Of a stretch of 38,549 nucleotides of DNA, positions 21,547 through 34,962 are shown in pieces. The position numbers were made by a program, and so were the translations under genes. The DNA comes from Chloroflexota bacterium (GTDB lineage: Bacteria > Chloroflexota > Anaerolineae > Anaerolineales > Villigracilaceae): positions 1-38,549 of the forward strand of contig JACRLC010000072.1 of assembly GCA_016235425.1 (NCBI GenBank), read 5' to 3'. The notes beneath the pieces were generated by a model that saw nothing but the letters and a program-made list of their open reading frames with translations, was not told the origin of the DNA and made no database searches. Numbering within the stretch: position 1 is the stretch's first letter; every line of letters begins with the position of its first letter.

Positions 21547-22275
21547 TTAAGTCTTACCCCACGCGAAATACGTGGGAATGTGCAAAACGCGCTCGCCGCG
21601 CTGGCGGGCTTGTTCATCCACCAACTTCATCCTGCGGACCTCCTCCCCCGCGACCGATCCCGCCAAATCAGATTCGATCACGCCCCATTCCTGGTCCCAC
21701 TCCTCAGCTGAACGCATCATCCCCGGACCTTGAATTGGCCCCGTTTCAACCAGCTTGATTCCTGCCTGATGGAAGGTTTCACCTAACCGCGCCCCGAAAG
21801 AGGGATCTGCCCCCTGCCGCCGCAGAGATTCGGTTTGCCACTTCCCAACCTGCGTGAGTATATCCGGTTTATCCACGCGGGCGGAGTAATCCGGCTCGGC
21901 CAGCGCAAGGATGTTTCCATCGCGCCGCGTCACGCGTTTCATTTCGCGCATGGCTTGCAATGGACTGCGAACCCATAGCAACAAAAAATGGGAATAGACG
22001 ATATCGAAACATTCATCGGGATACGGCAGTTCAAGCGCATCGCCGCGCACAAGGGAAACTGCCGGGGCATGGATTCTGCATTCGTCGAGCGCGGCAGGAT
22101 CGAGGTCCAGGCCGTGAAGCGAGGCGGGGGTATTCAAATCAGCGAGGACCGCGCCCGTGCCGCAGCCCACTTCGAGCACACGCTGCGCGCGGTCGAGCCT
22201 TGTTTTATCAAAAAGATAGGCGCGTAAATCATGGGTCCATTTTGCCTGTTGCAGGTAGCGGTTGTGCCAGTTCAT
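21547..22275 (-). CDS. SAM-dependent methyltransferase (class I)
   Basis: A 242-residue class I methyltransferase. Motif I is VLEVGCGTGAVLADL (33-47), motif II ends in HGLDLDP, and a post-I acidic block GDALELPYPDECFDIVYSHF follows, as in the Methyltransf_11/25 group acting on small molecules. The substrate is unknown. Its ATG overlaps the stop of the upstream lipoprotein gene (TAATG, shared base 22275), so the two are coupled in translation. Confidence 0.88.
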   Translation of the reverse strand: MNWHNRYLQQAKWTHDLRAYLFDKTRLDRAQRVLEVGCGTGAVLADLNTPASLHGLDLDPAALDECRIHAPAVSLVRGDALELPYPDECFDIVYSHFLLLWVRSPLQAMREMKRVTRRDGNILALAEPDYSARVDKPDILTQVGKWQTESLRRQGADPSFGARLGETFHQAGIKLVETGPIQGPGMMRSAEEWDQEWGVIESDLAGSVAGEEVRRMKLVDEQARQRGERVLHIPTYFAWGKT

Positions 22276-23250: not shown

Positions 23251-23784
23251 TTACTTCTTTGGTTCCTGCCAGTTCAGGATGAAGTCAACCTGTGTATTCG
23301 TCTCGGGTGATCTTGGGTGGAAGATGCTTTTAGGCACATACCGCCACCACGCGGCCAACTGTTGAAGCGCATCCCTGCCGCTGTGTCCATGCCGTACAAG
23401 GTAACAGCCGACGGTGGTTCCCGTCCGCCCGACCCCGCCCCAACAGTGGAGATAGAGCCTGTGATTGGATTCCAGGGATGCGTCGATTTCATCCAGGATG
23501 GATTGCATCGTCTCACGTGTGGGGATGCCAAAATCGCCAATCGGAAAGCGCCGGTAACGTATCTCCTTTTCATAGGCTTGCGCCTGCTCCGTCAGTATGG
23601 GCAGGTAAGGCGGGAGTTCGTTTGGGTTGGTCAAATCAATGAAAGTGTCGAATCCGTTTTCGAGGAAGGCGTCCATCTGGCGGCGGGTGCGTTCCTCCGA
23701 ATTTGACATCGGATATTCTCCCGCGAGAAAGCGGCCTGGCAGGACCCAGTAGGATTCGGGCAGGGGACGTTTCATTTCATTCAT
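23251..23784 (-). CDS. Cys-based (dual-specificity/tyrosine) phosphatase
   Basis: A 177-residue cytoplasmic phosphatase with the CX5R active site HCWGGVGRTGT (Cys114, Arg120), and Asp84 in PIGDFGIPT as possible general acid, as in DSP/CDC14-like families. No signal peptide. The start ATG overlaps the stop of the metallopeptidase-like pseudogene by 4 bp (ATGA at 23781-23784), so it is in that operon. The substrate could be a phosphoprotein or a phosphorylated small molecule. Confidence 0.9.
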   Translation of the reverse strand: MNEMKRPLPESYWVLPGRFLAGEYPMSNSEERTRRQMDAFLENGFDTFIDLTNPNELPPYLPILTEQAQAYEKEIRYRRFPIGDFGIPTRETMQSILDEIDASLESNHRLYLHCWGGVGRTGTTVGCYLVRHGHSGRDALQQLAAWWRYVPKSIFHPRSPETNTQVDFILNWQEPKK

Positions 23785-24905: not shown

Positions 24906-25946
24906 TTATTGATACACCGCGCAAAGGTTGTTCAAAATTTCATTCCGCAACTGCACGAGTTCCGGGTAATCGTAAAAGAACAGGATTTTCAGTTCGTCAA
25001 CCGTGAATGCTCCGGGCTTGGGGCCGAGCACAAAAAATGACCAGGATTCGGCAATGTCTTCTTCGGGGTTGGTCACGGCGTAATCGGTGACGAATTCGTC
25101 TTCGTAGTTGTAATAAAAATTATCCAGTTCTTCGTAATACTTGTCGTCATCTTCGATCTGGTTGATCTCCTGCCATTCCTCGTAATGTTGAACCCAGAAC
25201 TTGTTGTAGAACGCGTTGATGTAGGAATCTTCGGTACTGCACCCTTCGCCGGGAAAGTAGACTGGGCAGGCGGAGACTTCCTGCAAATAAATATCGTTGT
25301 CGTCGGGGTTGTTGAAGACAGCGAGGCTCGGCGGGACCTGGTTCGCGTTGAGGGTGAGTAGGTGGCCGAATTCATGCACGAGGGTGTAGGTGAGGTTGGC
25401 GCGGTCAGAAACGTCGGCGATGTCCACTTCCAAGGCCCAAAGCGCGGGATCGTAGGTGGTCTGCGTGACTGAGGCGAGGGTGTTGTCGGGGCCGTCGGTG
25501 GTGATGGAGTATTCGGCCACCGCTTCGCGCTGATTTGCCGGGATGAGCGCCGTGAAATAATTCCAGACATCTTCGTGTGTGGCGGCATCGTCCTGTTCAT
25601 CCTGCAAATCCGAGGAGACGGTTTCGTAAAATGGATTGGCAATTTCATTGCCCGAAACTTCATAGGTGACGAGGTAGGTTTCTTCCTGTGTGGAGGTGTC
25701 CGCTTCGCTGGAAACATCGTCGCTGGGGGTGGCGGCCGCGTTCATAATTTCGGTCAATGCGGCGGGGCAGGAGGCTGACTCTGTTGCGGGTTCGGGCTGA
25801 GGCTCGGAGTAGGGGATCTCTGTCGGTGGGGTGTTTGGTTGGGCGGGTTGATCTTCGGGGGAGAAAATGTCTGTGACGGCCGCGCAGGCCAAAGTCGCAA
25901 AAAGAAGCGTGAGCCCGAAAATCAGTATTTGTATCCTGCGAGTCAT
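24906..25946 (-). CDS. HExxH lipoprotein, putative zinc metallopeptidase
   Basis: A 346-residue lipoprotein with signal peptide and lipobox (TLAC), an acidic Pro-rich linker, and a domain carrying HEFGH (191-195, zinc-binding His and Glu) inside a helix, TYTLVHEFGHLLTL. The C-terminal 100 residues are Tyr/Asp/Glu-rich. The family is unnamed to me; the zinc motif suggests a surface-exposed peptidase. The start at 25946 follows GGAG; the frame is open upstream but without a ribosome site. It is tandemly duplicated (next gene down, 71 bp away), with about half the residues shared by eye. Confidence 0.78.
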   Translation of the reverse strand: MTRRIQILIFGLTLLFATLACAAVTDIFSPEDQPAQPNTPPTEIPYSEPQPEPATESASCPAALTEIMNAAATPSDDVSSEADTSTQEETYLVTYEVSGNEIANPFYETVSSDLQDEQDDAATHEDVWNYFTALIPANQREAVAEYSITTDGPDNTLASVTQTTYDPALWALEVDIADVSDRANLTYTLVHEFGHLLTLNANQVPPSLAVFNNPDDNDIYLQEVSACPVYFPGEGCSTEDSYINAFYNKFWVQHYEEWQEINQIEDDDKYYEELDNFYYNYEDEFVTDYAVTNPEEDIAESWSFFVLGPKPGAFTVDELKILFFYDYPELVQLRNEILNNLCAVYQ

Positions 25947-25999
25947 GGCGGCTCCGGTAAAAGATTGGCGCAAGGATACCACACTCGTTGGAGCACGAT

Positions 26000-26039: not shown

Positions 26040-27182
26040 TTACTTGTAAATTTCCTCCCACGGGTTTCGCAGGATGTTGCCCAGCACGTTTTTCGCCGCG
26101 CCCTGCGTGGGGAGCACGTCGCCATCGGGTTCAATGTAGAGCCATGCCTTGCCCGCGCCGGAGGGGATTTTGTCGTCTTCGGTTTCCATGGCAACGGGAT
26201 TCGATTCGGAGTATGGCACGGGCAGATCCCAACGCAGGGTGAAGTTGAGTTCGCTGGCTTTTCCCTGGAGTTGCAGGAGTTCATCGAGCAGGTTGTGATC
26301 GGATGTGCTGAGGGACAGGTTCTGCACACCGAGGCCCGCAAGTCTCTCGAGGATTTGCACGCTTTCGCTGACGTTGTCCTTTGTAAGCGTGAGATGGACG
26401 GTGAGGAACAAATCCGCAGGGACGATGGTTTCGATGGCTTTCCAGGCGGTCTTTTCGCCGGGTTGCAGGATCAGCATCACGTGGTCGAGACCGGTTTGCA
26501 GGAGGGTCTCGAGATAATTTTTTTCCGCGAGTTTGAAGCCGTCGGTGATCAGGCCGCAGACCTGGCCGACTTTTTCCGCGTAGGCAATCAACGCGGACAG
26601 GTCATCGCGCAGGGTGGGTTCGCCGCCCGTAAAAATGACGTGCGGGATTCCGGCCTGCCATGCCTTGTCCAAAACGGTCTGCCATTCTTCGGTGGTCAGT
26701 TCGCGTTCGACGCGTTTTGCCGGGGCGTAGTCTGCATGTGCGTTGGGGGGCAGGCGATAGGTGAGAGCGCAGTCGAGGCGGAGCGGGGCGGTGAGGGAGG
26801 CCGAATGGGGCGCGACCCGTTCAAAGTCGAGATAGGAAACGGGATCCAAATCGGGAGTGGAGATCAGGGTTTCGATCTTGTCCGCGAAGTCTTGAAAGTC
26901 TTCGAGCGCCATGCCCTTGCTCACGCGATAGCGCGCGGCAATTTGTTTCGCCACTTCATTGGGATTCGTCCCGCGGATGAAATGGTAGGCATATTCGGCG
27001 GCGGTTGAGTTGAGATGCAGGATGGTGGCGGCGTTGACGATCAATACGCCGGAGCCATCAGGCCTCAGCCGCAGGTGGATGCGATAGGGTTTTTCATCCT
27101 GCACGTCCTGTTTGTGATAAACGCCGACAGGGAGAGGTTGGATCTTTGCAAAGCGGTCTGCGAGACGGTTGACGATTTTCAT
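26040..27182 (-). CDS. Radical-SAM-like protein lacking cluster cysteines, PqqD-like N-terminus
   Basis: A 380-residue paralogue of the radical SAM protein at 28341-29759. The N-terminal domain (about 30-110) aligns with its PqqD-like recognition domain (IHLRLRPDGSGVLIVNA, ILHLN). The barrel keeps FTGGEPTLRDDL and the later strand pattern, but the cluster motif CxxxCxxC is replaced: TYRLPPNAHADY has Leu144, Ala148 and Asp151 at the three Cys positions. The SPASM cysteines are also gone, though WLYIEPDGDVLPTQG and LGNILRNPWEEIYK still align. It cannot bind the usual cluster and is probably a non-catalytic partner. It follows the DUF155-like gene by 9 bp. Confidence 0.82.
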   Translation of the reverse strand: MKIVNRLADRFAKIQPLPVGVYHKQDVQDEKPYRIHLRLRPDGSGVLIVNAATILHLNSTAAEYAYHFIRGTNPNEVAKQIAARYRVSKGMALEDFQDFADKIETLISTPDLDPVSYLDFERVAPHSASLTAPLRLDCALTYRLPPNAHADYAPAKRVERELTTEEWQTVLDKAWQAGIPHVIFTGGEPTLRDDLSALIAYAEKVGQVCGLITDGFKLAEKNYLETLLQTGLDHVMLILQPGEKTAWKAIETIVPADLFLTVHLTLTKDNVSESVQILERLAGLGVQNLSLSTSDHNLLDELLQLQGKASELNFTLRWDLPVPYSESNPVAMETEDDKIPSGAGKAWLYIEPDGDVLPTQGAAKNVLGNILRNPWEEIYK

Positions 27183-27191
27183 GGGAACTCC

Positions 27192-28229
27192 TTATGGATT
27201 GCGGAACCAGCCCAAATCCTCTATGAAAAAAAGATAGAAATAGCCGATGAGGAGAATCAGCCAGCCTGTGATTTGTACGATCTCCAGCAGGCTTTGCCAA
27301 GAGAGCGAGAAGTTCTCCTGCATCATTTCGATGATGTCTTCGAGATTGTCCAGTTTTTCCTTGACGGTCTTTTTCCAATCGTCCAGATAAAATTCATCGC
27401 GGATGGCGTGATAAAGCTGCGACGTGTACCAATCGCCGATGAGCAGAAGGTTTTGTTCGGTGTGTTCAAAATCGAGCATCAATTCGAGGCGGTGTTGTAC
27501 GATGCGTTTGATCTGTCCGCGTGTGGGGCCGAGCTGCGAGGCGCGGCGGGGATTGGCGCGGAATTGCTGGTTGATGTCGCGGAAACTGTTTTCGATGTGC
27601 TGGTCGAGCCGGCGGTAGCGAAGCAGTTGATAGTTGCCAATCTTGAGCAATTCGATGTCCGATTGAAAATCGCCGTTCGGCGCGATGATGACCGCACCCT
27701 CCCAATCCACCACGGTGAGATCGTCTTTTGAATAGCGCACGCGCGAACTCAGGATTTCGTCAATTTCCTGCCGGTCGAAGACTTCACGCTGTGAGCGGAT
27801 GAAACGCGCCAGCGCCACGGCATTGTTTTCCAAAAATTTTTCCGGCGAAGGTTTTGCGCCGACAAGCAAAAGGATTACAAACTCCTCGAACATGCCGGAG
27901 CTGCGATGTTCGATTGGCACGAAGCGTTCCTGCAAATTCCGCTGGACGACCTCGCGCTGTTGGATCGCGGCGAGACCTAAAGCATCCGACATTTGGAAGC
28001 GGCAATCAATGACCTGGATGCGATCGTCGAATCTTTGACGCAACACCGAAACCTGCACGCCTCCCGCCTGGACTTCAACCTGCCCCAGCGTTCTGACGCG
28101 GATATCCACGGGTTGGAAGTAGGGCGCGTCCTTCAGCCCGCGGATTTCCTCCGGCGGTTCGGGTGCGCTCTCGACGCGGTCTGGGAAGGCGAGAAGGTAG
28201 CAGATTTCAGTGGTTTTCGTTGGAGGCAT
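27192..28229 (-). CDS. DUF155 (RMD1-like) membrane protein
   Basis: A 345-residue protein with one or two membrane helices at the extreme C-terminus (about 312-336). The preceding helical region IGDWYTSQLYHAIRDEFYLDDWKKTVKEKLDNLEDI fits the end of the DUF155/RMD1 family, known from yeast mitochondria and bacteria but of unclear role. The N-terminal half is less typical. It lies between the two radical-SAM-type genes, with 9 bp to the next, so it belongs to their operon. Confidence 0.65.
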   Translation of the reverse strand: MPPTKTTEICYLLAFPDRVESAPEPPEEIRGLKDAPYFQPVDIRVRTLGQVEVQAGGVQVSVLRQRFDDRIQVIDCRFQMSDALGLAAIQQREVVQRNLQERFVPIEHRSSGMFEEFVILLLVGAKPSPEKFLENNAVALARFIRSQREVFDRQEIDEILSSRVRYSKDDLTVVDWEGAVIIAPNGDFQSDIELLKIGNYQLLRYRRLDQHIENSFRDINQQFRANPRRASQLGPTRGQIKRIVQHRLELMLDFEHTEQNLLLIGDWYTSQLYHAIRDEFYLDDWKKTVKEKLDNLEDIIEMMQENFSLSWQSLLEIVQITGWLILLIGYFYLFFIEDLGWFRNP

Positions 28230-28240
28230 GGTGAGCCTTG

Positions 28241-28326
28241 TGTCACTCTGAGGGAGCGCAAGTTGCGACCGAAGAGTCTCGTTTGTTGTGGTGGAGATTC
28301 TTCGGCGCTCCGCGCCTCAGAACGAC
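28241..28326. repeat. REP-like palindrome, TGTCACTCTGAGG type
   Basis: Outer arms TGTCACTCTGAGG (28241-28253) and CCTCAGAACGACA (ending 28326) and inner arms CGAAGAGTCTC (28270-28280) and GGAGATTCTTCGG (28293-28305) are inverted. The form resembles the long intergenic palindromes seen again at 33143-33299. It separates the radical SAM gene from the DUF155-like gene. Confidence 0.7.
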
Positions 28327-28340
28327 ATTTCCAGGGGAAG

Positions 28341-29759
28341 TCATTGGATAACAGGCAGGTTTACGCCGAAACTTTCGCGGTGCGTCTCAAACTGCAATGG
28401 ACATCCTCCGCCACATTCTGAAACAACGGGACAACCTTCGCATTTGGCAGGCAGTCCCTTGCGCTCGCGCAACTGCACGGACAGTTTGTGATTCCAAATG
28501 GAATCCCACGAGTCCGTGAGCATGTTGCCGAGCGGGTGGTAATACGACTGGCATGGTATCACATTCCCGTTGGATTCAATGCACATGCTGTATAACGAAG
28601 CTGTGCATCCTTTTACACCGAGGTTGCTCTGCGTGGGATCGAAGTTGCAGTATTGCGTAGGCGTGTACCAGATCAGGCGCTGGCCGTGATCGGATGTCTT
28701 TTGCACGGCCATATCGAGGATGGGTTGCAGTTCGCGTTCGTGCAAACCTGTGCCGACGGTGAGTCCGTTGCCGGAGTAAATCAGCGCGTTCAAGCCGATG
28801 GTGGGAACGCCGGTTTCAGCGAGAAAGTCCAGCGTATCGGGAATCTTGTGAACGTTCGTCCGCAACATGGTGGTGTTGGTCATCACGTAAAGCCGCGCAG
28901 CCAATACATTCTTCAGGCCCTGAATGGTTTGCTTGAAAGCGCCTTTTGCGCGCATCATCTCATCGTGGATATTTTCATCGCAGGATTCAACGGTGATTTG
29001 AACGTGGTCAAGACCGGCGTCCACGAGTTTTTGCACGTACTTTTCATCGGAGAGGCGGCGCGCGTTGGTGTTGAGGCCGGTGATCTGCCCATTGGATTCG
29101 GCGCGGGCGATCAGTTCGGGCAGGTCATTGCGGAGGGTTGCTTCGCCGCCGGTGAAGACGATGTGCGGCACGCCCAATGCCCAGAGCTGGTCAATGATTT
29201 TGAACCATTGCCCGGTGGTCAGCTCGGGGAAGTTGCGCTCGCGGGCGTTGTAGCAGTGGGCGCAGTCGTTGTTGCAACGGTAGGTGACGGCGAGATCCAT
29301 TCTGTAGGGTGCGGAGGGACGCGCGCTGAATGGCATGATCGATTCAAGGTCGAGTTCGTGGATTGCGCAGGCACCATCGGGACGAATCAAGTTGTCAAGC
29401 TGCAGGTTGAAGGTTGACAGGTCATTGCTTGCTTGATTTGCGCCAACCCGGTATTGATGCCTGATGGTCTGGATAATTTCCTGTTCTTTTCTTCCTTCGA
29501 GAATCAGGTAAGCCATCAGCGCGGCAGTTGGGTTCAAGTGCATGACGCGGTTGGCGTTGACGATCAAAGTTCCCGTACCATCGGGGTCAATCCGCAAGTG
29601 GATGCGCGATTTTTCGTGTTCGTTTTCGCGAGTGTAGTGGTAAAGGCGTGGGCCGGAGTCCAAAGTCTCCCGACTTTGGACTTGTTTATTGGATGGTGAA
29701 GATTCCAACGTCAGGAGACGTTGAAGTCCGGTTTGCAAACTTTTAAAATTCAGGGACAT
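28341..29759 (-). CDS. Radical SAM/SPASM maturase with PqqD-like domain
   Basis: A 472-residue enzyme. Residues about 50-130 form a PqqD-like peptide recognition domain (IHLRIDPDGTGTLIVNANRVMHLNPTA). The radical SAM cluster motif is CNNDCAHC (Cys162, 166, 169), followed by TGGEATLR. The C-terminal SPASM region has CTASLYSMCIESNGNVIPC and CEGCPVVSECGGGCP. Such proteins install thioether or C-C links in peptides (PqqE, sactipeptide and similar maturases). The likely target here is the Cys-Ala tail encoded at 30354-32096. ATG 29759 is six bases after GAGG. Residues 12-40 are encoded by REP hairpins. Confidence 0.92.
   Translation of the reverse strand: MSLNFKSLQTGLQRLLTLESSPSNKQVQSRETLDSGPRLYHYTRENEHEKSRIHLRIDPDGTGTLIVNANRVMHLNPTAALMAYLILEGRKEQEIIQTIRHQYRVGANQASNDLSTFNLQLDNLIRPDGACAIHELDLESIMPFSARPSAPYRMDLAVTYRCNNDCAHCYNARERNFPELTTGQWFKIIDQLWALGVPHIVFTGGEATLRNDLPELIARAESNGQITGLNTNARRLSDEKYVQKLVDAGLDHVQITVESCDENIHDEMMRAKGAFKQTIQGLKNVLAARLYVMTNTTMLRTNVHKIPDTLDFLAETGVPTIGLNALIYSGNGLTVGTGLHERELQPILDMAVQKTSDHGQRLIWYTPTQYCNFDPTQSNLGVKGCTASLYSMCIESNGNVIPCQSYYHPLGNMLTDSWDSIWNHKLSVQLRERKGLPAKCEGCPVVSECGGGCPLQFETHRESFGVNLPVIQ
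29657..29727. repeat. REP hairpin pair left of RAYT gene, inside coding sequence
   Basis: REP1: AGTCCAAAGTC-TCCC-GACTTTGGACT (29657-29682), perfect 11-bp arms. REP2: about 29702-29727, core CCAACGTC-AGGA-GACGTTG. Both share the GTC-(N4)-GAC core and loop type with the two hairpins at 30288-30350. Both lie inside the 5' end of the radical SAM gene and are translated. Confidence 0.88.
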
Positions 29760-30273
29760 CATTCACCTCATCCATTCCTGTAAAATCAAAATCCTGTAAC
29801 TGTGTCAGGTATTCCTTGTAATTGCTGAAAGGATAATCTTCGGGGTTCTCAACCAATCCATGCTTTACGGGATTCCAAAACACGTATCTCAAACGACTGT
29901 AATAATCGCGCTCCGAGCGAATGCAGGTATCCCAGTAATTCCACCAGACTTTTCGGCCATTTGCATTATCTTTATCATTCCAGTTGCGCGCAGTGAATTT
30001 ATGGTAACTGCTTGTAAATTTCGAGAGAGTGACGGCATTCCCGGGTGATTCGACGATGGCATGGTAGTGATTATCCAAAACGACCCAGGCGATAATCTTC
30101 CATTGATGAATTTTAGCCGCCTCATGGAACGCATCGTTCCATGAGGCTTTACGTTGTGGAGGCTGGATTAGGTGCTCGCTCAGGTAAATGGACGCGGTCA
30201 GCATATACAGTGTGTCGGGGAGAAATAAATGCGGAGGATTATGCGGGGCTGTTCTGAAGATATCGTTTTTCAT
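29743..30273 (-). CDS. REP-associated tyrosine transposase (RAYT, Y1 HUH family)
   Basis: A 176-residue single-domain HUH transposase: His69-Tyr70-His71 in LDNHYHAIVE, and the tyrosine helix RDYYSRLRYVFWNPVKHGLV with Tyr124/125 as candidate nucleophile. RAYTs nick and join at REP hairpins, and two hairpins lie on either side of this gene. The product appears full length. Its stop codon lies 17 bp inside the radical SAM gene start, so the maturase now depends on a transcript through the transposase. Confidence 0.92.
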   Translation of the reverse strand: MKNDIFRTAPHNPPHLFLPDTLYMLTASIYLSEHLIQPPQRKASWNDAFHEAAKIHQWKIIAWVVLDNHYHAIVESPGNAVTLSKFTSSYHKFTARNWNDKDNANGRKVWWNYWDTCIRSERDYYSRLRYVFWNPVKHGLVENPEDYPFSNYKEYLTQLQDFDFTGMDEVNDVPEF

Positions 30274-30287
30274 TGGGCAGTTTTCCT

Positions 30288-30350
30288 GTCAAAAGTCTGG
30301 AGACTTTTGACTCCAACGTTTTGACTCCAACGTCGGGAGACGTTGGAGTC
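30288..30350. repeat. REP hairpin pair right of RAYT gene
   Basis: REP3: GTCAAAAGTC-TGGA-GACTTTTGAC (30288-30311), perfect 10-bp arms. REP4: GACTCCAACGTC-GGGA-GACGTTGGAGTC (30323-30350), perfect 12-bp arms. A further half copy, GACTCCAACGTT, lies at 30309-30320. They are cognate to the transposase and start 3 bp after the stop of the Cys-tail gene. Confidence 0.9.
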
Positions 30351-30353
30351 CAG

Positions 30354-32096
30354 CTAACGGCCTCCACCCGCACAGGCGCAGGCGCAACCGGCGCAGGCGC
30401 AGGCGCAGGCGCATCCGCCGCCACTGCGACCGCCGCCGCGGCTCCGTCCACTGCTGGTGGGTTTGGGCGGGGGATTGGTCACGTTGGTGACGCGGCTGGT
30501 AAAGTCGCTGACGTTGCCGATGACTTTTTGGGAAAAGGTTTGAACGCCGGTAACGACGGAGGCGGCAAAGTCCGCGCCGGGGAGGGAGACTCTGCCCGAG
30601 GGCTGACTCGGCATGGATGACGGGAGCCTGCCTCCGGTCGAGGTGTGACGCGAGAATGTTGGGTCGTAGCTGCCCCACCACATCGGTACGTAAACCGGGC
30701 CGCGGAAGACTCTGCGGGAGCGGTCATCGTAATCCTTGTCGAGCATCGTCCATTCGAGTTGCTGGTCGAAGAAGGCCATCTGCACTTCGGGCGTGTCCGC
30801 TTTTTGAACTTGTTCCCAGGCGGTCTCCATGATGCGTTTGTAGTATTCGATGGTTTCCTTGCGGCTGAAACCTTTCATTTTTTCGGAGACCGATTTGACG
30901 AGGGCGATGGTCATGTCTTGAAGGTTTTTGCGGCGGTTTTTCGGATCCTTGTCTTTGAAGGCTTGAAGGAATTTGGACTCGTATTCGTGCAGGCCTTCGG
31001 GAAGCGGTTCGTTGACCGTGATGTCGAGCGGGTCGCGTTTGGTGACGACTGCCGCGCCTTTTTTGACTGCACCGAATAAGATCATTGTCATCACTTTGTC
31101 GAGCGGTTGTTCCATGAGGATGGCGGCTTCGACGGCGGTGAGTCCTCGTTTGATGCCGTGGCCTTCGATGGATATCTTCGGGGCCATGTACTGCAGTTTG
31201 CGGCGGTTGTTGCCGATGGCGGTCAGGGCGGGCAGGCCGACGAACATGAAGATAAAGAAGCAACAGAAAAAGAGCGGCCCAAGACTTGAGACGATGGAGT
31301 CAATGAATTCTCCAATGTCAAAAGCCGGTGCTGTGACAATGGCGGTGGCTGGAATGTATGCTTTTGGGAAGGATGCGCCGAACAGGTATTGTCTTGAGCC
31401 TGAGGTGTTTTGATTTGCCCAGGTGTATGTGATGCGGCCTTCGGAATCAAATCCTGTTTGCGGTTCGGATGGGAAATCGGATGGCGCGCCATGCCAGCGC
31501 GGTTCTTCGGGCTTTACACCGGGCGGCATGTGGAAGGTGACAGCCAGGTCGGTGTTGCCAACCACGTATTGACTTCCAAACCATGTGGGAGAGAAGACTG
31601 CGGAGGCGTAGGCTTCGTCGTTATCATCGGGATAGAGCACGCCGCTAATCCTGCCCGCGTACACATGGAGCGTGCCTGTTTGCCCAGGCTGGATGGCATA
31701 CGCACCCATATCCACCGCAAAGCCGTAGGAACCCTCTCCCTGATAGTCTGACGAGATGGAGACGCGGTTTCCGTTAACGTCAGCGAACGCTCCCTCGGTT
31801 GTGCCTGTAAGTGGGGTGGTTGGGGTTGTGTCTGGAAATGGCGCTTCGGTTGGGCTTGGGCTTATGGTGCTGAAGTTTCCGTTTGGCATGCCCACGTCCA
31901 CAAAGTCAATGACGTGCGCGCCGGGTTGGTTGGTGAACGTGAACTGGTAATCCAGCGACATCGTGCCGTCTGAATTCCAGTAGACGTTCACAACCTCCTT
32001 ATCGAGGCGGAATGAATATTCCTGTGCGAATGCGCTGGTGACAAGACCAAACGTCAACAGGAAGACGAGGCAGATTGCAAGCAGTTTTTGTTTCAT
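30354..32096 (-). CDS. Secreted/membrane protein with (Cys-Ala) repeat C-terminal tail
   Basis: A 580-residue protein: signal peptide (1-24, cleavage after AFA), a beta-rich extracytoplasmic domain (25-260, reminiscent of DUF2207), a membrane helix with FFCCFFIFMF (about 275-300), a cytoplasmic helical domain (300-500), a Ser/Gly/Pro linker, and a final GGG-(CA)4-G-(CA)3-GGGR tail with Cys at 562, 564, 566, 568, 571, 573 and 575. The tail is encoded by TGCGCC hexamers. With a PqqD-like radical SAM/SPASM enzyme downstream, the tail is the likely modification substrate. The start is ATG 32096 after GGAGG; the open frame upstream has none. Confidence 0.82.
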   Translation of the reverse strand: MKQKLLAICLVFLLTFGLVTSAFAQEYSFRLDKEVVNVYWNSDGTMSLDYQFTFTNQPGAHVIDFVDVGMPNGNFSTISPSPTEAPFPDTTPTTPLTGTTEGAFADVNGNRVSISSDYQGEGSYGFAVDMGAYAIQPGQTGTLHVYAGRISGVLYPDDNDEAYASAVFSPTWFGSQYVVGNTDLAVTFHMPPGVKPEEPRWHGAPSDFPSEPQTGFDSEGRITYTWANQNTSGSRQYLFGASFPKAYIPATAIVTAPAFDIGEFIDSIVSSLGPLFFCCFFIFMFVGLPALTAIGNNRRKLQYMAPKISIEGHGIKRGLTAVEAAILMEQPLDKVMTMILFGAVKKGAAVVTKRDPLDITVNEPLPEGLHEYESKFLQAFKDKDPKNRRKNLQDMTIALVKSVSEKMKGFSRKETIEYYKRIMETAWEQVQKADTPEVQMAFFDQQLEWTMLDKDYDDRSRRVFRGPVYVPMWWGSYDPTFSRHTSTGGRLPSSMPSQPSGRVSLPGADFAASVVTGVQTFSQKVIGNVSDFTSRVTNVTNPPPKPTSSGRSRGGGRSGGGCACACACAGCACACAGGGR

Positions 32097-32100
32097 TGGC

Positions 32101-32191
32101 CCTCCGGGGAAGTGTCGACAAAAGTGTCGAAGTGTCAGAGTGTCAAAAGTGTCACATTGACACTTGAGCACCTTCGACACTTTTGACACTT
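32101..32191. repeat. Cluster of eight GTGTC/GACAC words
   Basis: Five GTGTC words on the plus strand are followed by three GACAC words within 91 bp, making overlapping hairpins such as AAGTGTCA-CAT-TGACACTT and ending GACACTTTTTT. It fills the gap between the zinc-ribbon gene and the Cys-tail gene. It may attenuate transcription or be a decayed repeat. Confidence 0.6.
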
Positions 32192-32193
32192 TT

Positions 32194-32595
32194 TTACCAC
32201 TTCGGTTCTTCGGTCATTTGATAGACGGTGTGACAATACGGGCAGTTGACCATCGGCGCGCCGTTGGCGAGGGTGATGTCCTTGGCCGTGAGAGTCCCGC
32301 CGCAGGAACGGCATTTGACTTCTTCGATTTTGGTCTGTCCGGGTAAATCTACTTTCATGGTGACCTGCTGGACAACCTCGGTCTTCGTCCCGCGCATGGC
32401 GGCAATGACCATGCCTGCGCCGCCAGCAAGGAATAAGACGCCGACTGCGCCGAAGCCGAGTCCAAACGCCAGCCAGGAGGAACTTCCCTGCGAGGAGGTG
32501 GAGCCGATGACGCTCAATACTCCGTATCCCACCAAACACAGGCCAATCAAAAATAATATCCCCGCGCCGATGTAGAGAAAGGTTTTGTTTGCCAT
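32194..32595 (-). CDS. Membrane protein with C-terminal zinc ribbon
   Basis: A 133-residue protein: two membrane helices (about 8-30 and 42-66), then a cytoplasmic zinc ribbon with CRSCGG and CPYCHTVYQ (cysteines near 95, 98, 118 and 121). No named family. The ATG has AGGAG about eight bases upstream. It is the first gene of the minus-strand series and 97 bp ahead of the Cys-tail protein gene; a partner role in the same membrane assembly is inferred. Confidence 0.75.
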   Translation of the reverse strand: MANKTFLYIGAGILFLIGLCLVGYGVLSVIGSTSSQGSSSWLAFGLGFGAVGVLFLAGGAGMVIAAMRGTKTEVVQQVTMKVDLPGQTKIEEVKCRSCGGTLTAKDITLANGAPMVNCPYCHTVYQMTEEPKW

Positions 32596-33326: not shown

Positions 33327-34962
33327 ATGACCCTTAACGATCAATACAACAAATGGAAAGAAAATACTCTCAAGAAATCTTTGGAAAAATTCAAAGAGAG
33401 GAAAGAGCGTTTCGAGACCTCGGCAGGCATCGAGGTCCCGCGGGTGGCGTTGCCTGGTACAGGGCGGGGGGACCCCGCCCCTACGTCGGAGGAATCCTAT
33501 TTAGAGAAGTTAGGCTTCCCTGGTGAGTATCCGTATACCCGCGGAGTCCAGCCGACGATGTATCGTTCGCGGTTTTGGACAATGCGTCAGTATGCGGGGT
33601 TCTCGACAGCGGAGGAATCCAACAAACGCTATCGCTATTTGTTGGAGCAGGGCCAAACGGGATTGAGCGTCGCGTTCGACCTGCCGACTCAGATCGGCTA
33701 CGACGCGGACGACCCGATTGCGCAGGGCGAAGTGGGGAAGGTGGGCGTTTCGATCTCGTCCATTCGCGATATGGAGCAGTTGTTCGACCAGATCCCGCTC
33801 GACAAGGTTTCGACTTCGATGACCATCAACGCGCCCGCGGGCGTTTTGCTGGCGATGTACATTGCGGTGGCGAAGCGTCAGGGCGCGGACATGCGCCAGT
33901 TGCGCGGCACCATCCAGAACGACATTCTCAAAGAGTACGTGGCGCGCGGCACGTATATTTTCCCGCCCGCGCCTTCGATGCGGCTCATCACCGATATCTT
34001 TTCATTTTGCGCGAAAGAAGTACCGTATTGGAACACGATCTCGATCTCGGGCTATCACATCCGCGAAGCAGGCTCCACCGCCGTGCAGGAAGTTGCCTTC
34101 ACGCTGGCGAATGGAATCGCTTATGTAGAATCGGCCCTTGCGGCTGGTTTGAATATAGATGATTTTGCGGGTCAGCTTTCGTTCTTCTTCAACGCGCACA
34201 ACAACCTGCTCGAAGAGGTCGCCAAGTTCCGCGCCGCGCGCCGCATGTGGGCAAGGATCATGCGCGAACGATTCAAAGCGCAAAAGCCATCGTCGTGGCA
34301 ACTTCGATTTCATACACAAACGGCTGGGTCAACGCTCACGGCTCAACAGCCTGAAAATAACGTGGTGCGTGTTACGTTGCAGGCGCTTTCGGCAGTATTG
34401 GGCGGCACGCAAAGTTTGCACACCAATTCAATGGATGAGGCGCTCTCAACAAATCATCGCCTACGAATCAGGCATTGCGGATTCCATTGACCCGCTGGCT
34501 GGCTCTTATTTAGTCGAGTACCTCACCGATGAGATCGAAAAAGGCGCCCTCGACTACATCGCCAGGATCGACGAGATGGGCGGCGCGCTGCAATCCATTG
34601 AACGCGGCTACATGCAGAACGAGATCCAAAACGCCGCCTACGCCGCGCAGCAGGAGATCGAGCGCAAAGAGCAGATCGTGGTGGGCGTCAATCAATTTGC
34701 CGTTGATGAAGTTCTCACGTTGGAACGTTTGAAAGTTGATCCCGCGATTGAGGTGGCGGCGCGGGCGCGGTTGAAGGAATTAAGAGAGAGTAGAGACCAG
34801 GGAGTTGTGGAGCAGTTGCTTGCCAAGTTGGTGGAAGCGGCAAAGGGAACGGACAATTTGATGCCGTTGTTCATTGAGTGCGTGGAGAATGATGTCACGC
34901 TGGGCGAGATTTGCAATACACTGAGGGGGGTGTGGGGAGAGTATGTGGCGGAAGGATTTTAG
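33327..34962 (+). pseudogene. mcmA: Methylmalonyl-CoA mutase-type large subunit (catalytic domain), disrupted
   Basis: A B12-dependent acyl-CoA mutase catalytic subunit without its own B12-binding domain. The first frame has [21 protein letters not shown] (substrate Tyr region), [11 protein letters not shown] and SGYHIREAG up to [10 protein letters not shown]. There the frame breaks (about 34441-34451) and the next frame resumes with [31 protein letters not shown]. The block ALPTEEAVRIALRT or its like, usual between these parts, is missing, so an out-of-frame deletion of about 45 bp is inferred. Total 1636 bp. A REP-like insertion at 33456-33487 is translated in frame. AAAGGA precedes the ATG. 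Confidence 0.88.
33456..33487. repeat. GC-rich palindrome inserted in mutase coding sequence
   Basis: GTACAGGGCGGGG and CCCCGCCCCTAC are near-perfect inverted arms. They encode residues [12 protein letters not shown] between VPRVAL and [15 protein letters not shown], a linker where mutases vary. The composition is unlike the surrounding codons. Confidence 0.7.

Follow-up and report, generated by a model that had tools for sequence, protein, structure and literature searches.

Can a radical SAM enzyme of the type that matures peptides work on the end of a large membrane protein? The question is raised by a contig of a Chloroflexota bacterium (Villigracilaceae; GenBank assembly GCA_016235425.1, contig JACRLC010000072.1), whose full 38,549 nucleotides are called the window here. 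Reading of its ORFs (open reading frames) confirmed a series of minus-strand genes at 26040-32595. One of them encodes a protein of 580 residues (30354-32096, minus strand, read from the ATG at 32096; the mechanical ORF start is 32189) that ends exactly in GGG(CA)4G(CA)3GGGR. This Cys-Ala tail with its Gly lead-in, GGGCACACACAGCACACAGGGR, lies at 30357-30422 on the minus strand with the stop codon immediately after. The same series encodes rSAM1 (28341-29762, minus strand), the presumed maturase of the tail, in which a PqqD domain resembling a RiPP (ribosomally synthesized and post-translationally modified peptide) recognition element is followed by a radical SAM domain with the motif CNNDCAHC and by a SPASM domain. 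Our analysis makes it probable that the cytosolic C-terminal tail of the membrane protein undergoes a RiPP-like modification and is left attached.

The tail is nearly invariant in a protein that otherwise diverges. The tail protein itself gave no match in Pfam or NCBIfam up to an E-value of 0.1, and a whole-protein search found homologues in 71 of 298 genomes of the class. We fetched 39 regions with the stronger body matches (L031-L068 and L017), which were chosen by homology of the protein body, and counted homologues at 60 bits or more; strong partial matches at G263:C13 near 303,300 and on G198:C22 were left out. In these regions, 42 of the 44 homologous ORFs end in exact (CA)nG(CA)nGGGR. 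The remaining two are one part of a split gene, the tail being on the other part, and a sequence that enters Ns inside the tail. The ending is retained down to about 33% body identity. Two forms dominate, with three (short form) or four (long form) CA units after the inner Gly. Among 28 short-form tails obtained by body homology, a mean of 8.6 of 15 codons differ per pair and every difference is synonymous, and pairwise identity over the 15 residues preceding the repeat is 21% in a set that includes rows picked by the tail pattern. Since synonymous codons vary while the residues stay fixed, the tail residues appear to be under selection.

A pattern scan over genomes of 84,980 species, in which only CACAGCACA was fixed, found at least 119 loci, and 105 of the 119 listed have a C-terminal tail ORF of at least 60 residues. 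The listed set also holds two ORFs below this length at a cut end (L111, L125), one match that is not C-terminal (L156) and two that are unreadable in frame (L109, L162). Of the 117 readable in frame, 107 reach GGGR and a stop, one extends 21 residues further and nine are chance-like (L069, L075, L081, L082, L088, L097, L129, L131, L142). By record title, the listed tail loci are mostly from Chloroflexota, including four strain-named records (Ornatilinea, Levilinea, Bellilinea and Leptolinea). Further bacterial carriers among them are Armatimonadetes/Zipacnadia, Aminicenantes, Coatesbacteria, Edwardsbacteria, Sabulitectum/Fermentibacteraceae/Hyd24-12, Zixiibacteriota, Acidobacteriota, Pirellulales and other Planctomycetes, Hydrogenedentota and 'Deltaproteobacteria', and the archaeal carriers are the Asgard lineages Hodarchaeota, Heimdallarchaeota, Sigynarchaeota and Lokiarchaeota. 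Asgard genomes have a third form, (CA)6GGGR, and a fourth, CACACACVSCACACAGGGR, which preserves the Cys positions of the window form; the Cys repeat is retained in both.

The enzyme beside the tail looks fully equipped. All three domains of rSAM1 score above their Pfam cut-offs (PqqD 30.1 bits against 23.4, Radical_SAM 98.2 against 29.5, SPASM 39.5 against 21.5), and the PqqD domain is accompanied by both the CxxxCxxC motif and the auxiliary-cluster cysteines; C162, C166, C169, C371, C385, C403, C440, C443, C449 and C453 are invariant in 24 sequences. Against the best 25 NCBIfam families rSAM1 stays below the cut-offs. A maturase profile was built from these 24 rSAM1 sequences, with a threshold of at least 500 bits for what we call the first clade. 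Among the 298 class genomes, 39 have both tail and maturase, none has the tail only, four have the maturase only and 255 have neither; a reversed control pattern matches in one of the 298. In an Asgard sample of 148 genomes, from the phylum of the Hodarchaeota genome behind L086, a CA-type tail is found in 26, a first-clade maturase in 31 (two truncated) and both in 25. The first-pass annotation of this DNA had taken the radical SAM substrate to be no short peptide but the tail of the large membrane protein, and had proposed checking across genomes whether tail and enzyme co-occur. They do: the maturase clade is present in 39/39 class and 25/26 Asgard tail genomes. Together with the second tail-enzyme pair described below, this sequence-based association supports that central idea.

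A second pair of tail and enzyme exists on the same protein family. In 33 class genomes an active-type maturase matches the profile at 303-374 bits (one genome, G276, is also among the 43 at 500 bits or more), and regions were fetched for 22 of these 33, those of G215 and G235 for the tail gene only. Beside the maturases in the fetched regions lies a tail-protein homologue that ends in a near-invariant Cys-His-Ser-Ala (CHSAC) repeat with small variations. The CHSAC pattern occurs in 32 class genomes; the sister-clade enzyme was found by search in 31 of them and, on fetching, adjacent to the tail gene in the 32nd (G118). G024 and G225 have the sister-clade enzyme without the CHSAC pattern. The Asgard sample repeats this pairing, with a CHSAC tail in 25 genomes, the second clade in 23 and both in 22, and crossed pairings of tail and clade show no positive association in either sample. 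In a maturase tree of 163 rows, 142 of them tail-labelled, a single change separates tail classes I and II among the labelled rows; when unlabelled rows are treated as a state, the CHSAC label needs two changes. The tail forms inside class I are clustered, not cleanly separated, in this tree, which was made with FastTree and gave warnings on long branches.

The pairing also holds where the genes are unlinked (G100, G173, G301, G308, G350, G371). Among 27 genomes behind named loci, mostly picked because the locus itself showed no active enzyme, 26 match the maturase profile at an E-value of 1e-50 or better and 21 reach 500 bits. The weaker matches are two partial ones at 366-374 bits and those of G310 (265 bits), G307 (196) and G312 (191). 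At three Asgard loci (L328-L330) a maturase and a methyltransferase gene are paired and the vicinity lacks a tail gene; G350 and G371 (the source of L329) have a tail gene of the form CACACACVSCACACAGGGR on a separate contig. In tail-less or split genomes, nothing new emerged from the Cys-rich proteins encoded beside the maturase. One genome of the window's family (L272, G192:C35) has the pseudo-radical-SAM paralogue described below, with tail and active maturase absent at the thresholds used, a possible case of decay of the system.

Operon structure ties the same genes together. Among listed short-form loci, an active radical SAM gene follows on the same strand in 62 of the 71 with 1.5 kb available downstream. 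In the other nine it is on the opposite strand (L090, L102), lies in a split ORF (L180), is seen only as a pseudo copy (L098, L163) or is located elsewhere in the genome (L099, L116, L149, L170). The gene preceding the tail gene, ZnR (32194-32595, minus strand), encodes a membrane protein whose C-terminal CxxC..CxxC zinc ribbon scores below Pfam cut-offs. Where short-form loci extend at least 600 bases upstream, 62 of 65 have a same-strand counterpart of this gene, and where they extend 3.5 kb downstream, 29 of 39 have a pseudo-radical-SAM gene. Long-form loci are ordered ZnR, radical SAM, pseudo-radical-SAM and tail proteins; of 20 listed, three have 3.5 kb upstream, and all three have the active enzyme there. 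Among listed loci with 900 bp of room, a methyltransferase gene is found within 300 bp on the same strand in 31 of the 49 of short form and in 12 of the 19 of long form; in class-genome regions the counts are 10 of 24 and 5 of 9. The methyltransferase also accompanies the maturase in 15 of 16 fetched Asgard Cys-Ala-type regions (the exception is L317). In the window, the methyltransferase (Methyltransf_11, 21547-22275, minus strand) is displaced, being separated from the operon by the terminator and four other genes.

The window paralogue, rSAM2 (26040-27182, minus strand), retains a PqqD-like N-terminus (17.4 bits, below the Pfam cut-off) and the motif FTGGEPT, which is conserved or nearly so in its relatives. 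It had been described as cysteine-less, and the CxxxCxxC motif is indeed absent; two cysteines are present. Its predicted structure (24 sequences, pLDDT 84.7, pTM 0.83) aligns with SkfB (Z 23.0, root-mean-square deviation (rmsd) 4.3, 299 residues aligned), SuiB (Z 22.2, rmsd 4.1, 311 aligned) and PqqE (Z 21.7, rmsd 2.9, 226 aligned).

Where the tail lies was addressed by modelling. The tail-protein model (52 sequences, mean pLDDT 84.3, pTM 0.50) has an N-terminal helix, a beta-sandwich-like region at residues 29-244, a long helix at 261-296, a helical domain at 321-480, two helices at 507-540 and a disordered Gly-rich linker and tail. A Foldseek search with this model returned OST complex subunits and M1 aminopeptidases at TM-scores of about 0.23, which are uninformative for function. 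The tail is predicted to be cytosolic because the protein has a signal peptide and one membrane helix that is followed by NNRRK. In this arrangement the beta-sandwich should be outside and the tail in the cytosol, where a radical SAM enzyme works, and the predicted location fits a tail that remains attached.

One fusion shows that the end of the protein is modular. In G048 (L068:978-4406), a Ser/Thr kinase-AAA protein, with an ORF of 1143 residues, bears the last ~130 residues and the tail, and its gene adjoins a maturase gene. It is the single fusion of this kind seen. Because the kinase protein carries just this segment beside a maturase, the recognition site is probably located inside the last ~130 residues. 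Another layout occurs in Hungatella hathewayi WAL-18680 (L288:9542-12063), where a compact tail protein (a 356-residue ORF), with an apparent order of transmembrane segment, beta-sandwich and transmembrane segment, has the tail followed by 21 further residues. A divergent maturase gene lies alongside, and the locus is flanked by genes that we take to be argH and argG.

How might such a tail be processed? PqqD domains are of the kind that binds peptide substrates, and thioether cross-links are a common chemistry of SPASM maturases. We propose that the signal peptide directs export of the tail protein, which would leave the beta-sandwich outside and keep the C-terminus on the cytosolic side. rSAM1 would dock upstream of the tail through its PqqD-type recognition domain, a step for which the last ~130 residues are probably enough, and its radical SAM/SPASM part would act on the Cys-Ala repeat. 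Since Cys is conserved across the tail variants, it is most likely the site of reaction. Candidate products are thioether cross-links, epimerisation or another conversion of Cys; alternating epimerisation would also suit the two-residue period of the repeat. The pseudo-radical-SAM paralogue may serve as a docking or presenting partner and the methyltransferase as a second tailoring enzyme, although neither seems to be needed in general because the former is unseen in the fetched Asgard loci and the latter in CHSAC regions. The finished tail would stay on the protein at the inner membrane face, as suggested by the conservation of the whole host protein and by the fact that no cytosolic protease or exporter was recognised among recurrent neighbours. 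There it would probably be a metal- or redox-active or a rigid structural element, as the invariance of the tail favours a product that is fixed, either cofactor-like or structural. That an enzyme remodels the tail in the cytosol is the best explanation because a PqqD domain and an intact SPASM core, often with the partner genes, track the Cys-repeat tail nearly one-to-one.

Several points weigh against this interpretation. In the model, the tail has a pLDDT below 50. The profile was derived from neighbours of the tail, and the 500-bit cut was set in a visible gap after the gap had been seen. Fisher p-values overstate the association, since the genomes are related and not independent. The maturase occurs at 500 bits or more without the tail pattern in four of 43 class genomes (G005, G006, G128, G157), and in the Asgard sample 6 of 31 first-clade and 1 of 23 second-clade enzymes lack a tail pattern. 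Conversely, Asgard genomes G342, G417, G423 and G456 carry a tail with no maturase at threshold, the tail of G456 being on a 2.6 Mb contig. Of the genomes behind named loci (27 in all), G306 gave no match to the maturase profile, and the copies seen after fetching from G307 and G312 all lacked CxxxCxxC. The accessory genes vary as well: the pseudo-enzyme was not seen in the fetched Asgard loci, nor the methyltransferase in the CHSAC regions compared (0/20).

Among other explanations, the one that survives best is that the tail is a metal or Fe-S site as translated, while the radical SAM enzyme has another substrate or takes metal or sulfur from the tail. The dense cysteines, joined by His in the CHSAC class, do resemble metal ligands, and a zinc-ribbon membrane protein is usually encoded nearby. 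This explanation does not account for the PqqD domain of rSAM1 or for a maturase clade that tracks the tail type in two domains of life, and no alternative substrate stood out among the recurrent neighbours of Cys-Ala loci. We therefore consider it unlikely.

Slightly less likely still is that the membrane protein is an oversized precursor from which the modified tail is cut off as a small cofactor or peptide, comparable to PQQ or mycofactocin. Near-absolute invariance would suit a cofactor precursor, and candidate peptidases exist. A gene for an HExxH-containing, lipoprotein-like protein (24906-25982) lies immediately downstream of the rSAM2 gene in the window, and such a gene is nearby in some relatives, so the earlier statement that no protease is nearby was not quite right. 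Of the 20 CHSAC regions compared (L248-L267), 13 encode an InhA-like-domain protein, and 17 a 405-residue protein without a Pfam match; another recurrent gene beside the maturase there encodes a membrane protein ending in a zinc-ribbon-like segment. The HExxH gene, however, accounts for only seven ORFs among the listed loci, and both peptidases look secreted, as judged from their sequences, whereas the tail is predicted to be inside. Neither an exporter nor a cytosolic protease was recognised among those recurrent neighbours that could be identified, and the host protein is conserved far beyond the length of a leader. Modification in place remains the preferred reading.

It is very improbable that the tail serves unrelated machinery as a C-terminal tag for sorting, attachment or degradation, with the radical SAM gene hitch-hiking. 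The exact C-terminal position and the fixed GGGR end (107/117 in-frame loci) would be expected of a tag, but the tail is cytosolic in the model, its pairing with one enzyme clade persists where the genes are unlinked, and one carrier has 21 residues past the tail. Finally, the alternating two-residue repeat and the nine chance-like loci among the 119 listed might recall low-complexity DNA translated by chance, an idea that is rejected as having next to no likelihood by the codon pattern of synonymous variation with fixed residues and by the single match of the reversed control among 298 genomes.

The first-pass annotation had grouped six minus-strand genes closed by a terminator, and both the genes and the exact ending of the tail are as it described. 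A terminator-like hairpin of 10 pairs followed by a T run ends the core operon at 26029-26006 (minus strand); such sites are not enriched across the region (16 observed, 15.8 in shuffles). As a functional unit, the set of six has to be abandoned, since two members are not widely conserved and the methyltransferase, which had been missed, and ZnR often are. One of the two, a REP-associated tyrosine transposase (RAYT; 29743-30273, minus strand), is a passenger between the tail gene and rSAM1, with two matches among the listed loci, one of them weak. It is accompanied by REP-like palindromes, GACTCCAACGTCTCCCGACGTTGGAGTC, at 29743-30345, just 3' of the tail gene, and the two together look like a REPtron inserted into the operon. 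A RAYT occupies the equivalent place, between tail gene and rSAM1, in L144. The other is a protein with a C-terminal membrane segment (27192-28229, minus strand), which is not part of the core: it is found in 8 of 59 compared regions, the window included, and as 14 ORFs among listed loci. The DUF155-like label given to it does not stand, as Pfam gives only DUF6063 at an E-value of 0.0019, below cut-off. A role in defence was rejected, PADLOC returning only viperin-type radical SAM matches, which reach at best 58 and 34.5 bits, and a single methyltransferase match of 54.1 bits. A DSP/PTP-type phosphatase (Pfam Tc-R-P, PTP-SAK) is encoded at 23251-23784 within the minus-strand run behind the operon. 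At 33327-34962, methylmalonyl-CoA mutase is apparently split into two overlapping ORFs (387 and 267 residues), compared with one 567-residue ORF in the relative L037, which seems to reflect a frameshift or an assembly error.

Radical SAM enzymes of RiPP pathways are known mainly for acting on short precursor peptides. In domain make-up and fold, the enzymes described here resemble the SPASM maturases SkfB, SuiB and PqqE with PqqD, and the best sequence matches of the rSAM1 profile among solved structures are PqqE (6c8v) and SkfB (6efn). Unlike in those systems, the enzyme would act on the end of a ~500-700-residue membrane protein (580 residues in the window) instead of on a short precursor with leader and core, and a paralogue without CxxxCxxC follows in 29/39 short-form loci with enough sequence downstream. 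Scores of rSAM1 are well below the equivalog cut-off of PqqE (TIGR02109; 130 bits against 381.35). The ACGX-repeat system places a Cys/Ala/Gly repeat beside a SPASM maturase; its substrate differs in size, and rSAM1 reaches 65.3 bits where TIGR04340 requires 400. The pseudo-SAM/SPASM family TIGR04347 is by name a radical SAM-like protein without core-cluster function, like rSAM2, which reaches only 49.7 bits of the required 525.

The closest precedent involves another enzyme. Antoine et al. 2025 (PMC12452194) propose that MNIO enzymes modify certain TIGR04222 membrane proteins, namely subsets whose C-termini are rich in Cys; the proteins are described as extremely diverse, their tails are predicted to be periplasmic, and MNIO genes are absent from 490 of 1372 genomes having a TIGR04222 protein. 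TIGR04222 ('near_uncomplex')/MNIO and the window system share a similar membrane protein, a Gly/Cys-rich C-terminus and a protein rather than a peptide as the proposed substrate, and differ in that the window system has a PqqD-radical SAM-SPASM enzyme, near-invariant tails predicted to be cytosolic and tight co-occurrence. The host proteins may belong to a shared distant family, because the CHSAC-tailed protein matches TIGR04222 below threshold (31.8 bits, cut-off 43) and DUF2207 (PF09972; 25.2 bits, gathering score 24.4); the window tail protein matches neither. No MNIO was found among the window proteins scanned against Pfam and NCBIfam, the rest of the window and the genome not having been scanned for it. 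In open-licence full text, we found no report of a radical SAM counterpart to the MNIO/TIGR04222 tails and no text pairing 'radical SAM' with 'DUF2207'. The radical SAM version of membrane-protein tail modification thus appears to be new, with the proposed MNIO/TIGR04222 tails as a precedent, which qualifies the earlier description of the locus as a candidate new system.

Going further, and with a good deal less assurance than for the modification as such, we put forward that the tail represents a new class of membrane-tethered, ribosomally encoded prosthetic group. CysAla or CysHisSerAla tails might be converted in place by their dedicated PqqD-radical SAM-SPASM enzyme, aided in many bacteria by the pseudo-radical-SAM partner and in the Cys-Ala class often by the methyltransferase, into a fixed rod, cross-linked or metal-binding, at the inner face of the membrane, common to Chloroflexota, Planctomycetes, Armatimonadetes, Aminicenantes and Asgard archaea. 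The system lends itself to direct testing, since one protein family offers two tail-enzyme pairs, a kinase has taken up the tail, and one partner protein lacks the cluster cysteines. If the interpretation is true, radical SAM RiPP chemistry would be applied to a large resident membrane protein, and a tail that is fixed across bacteria and Asgard archaea would point to a product with an exact job, closer to a cofactor than to an antibiotic.

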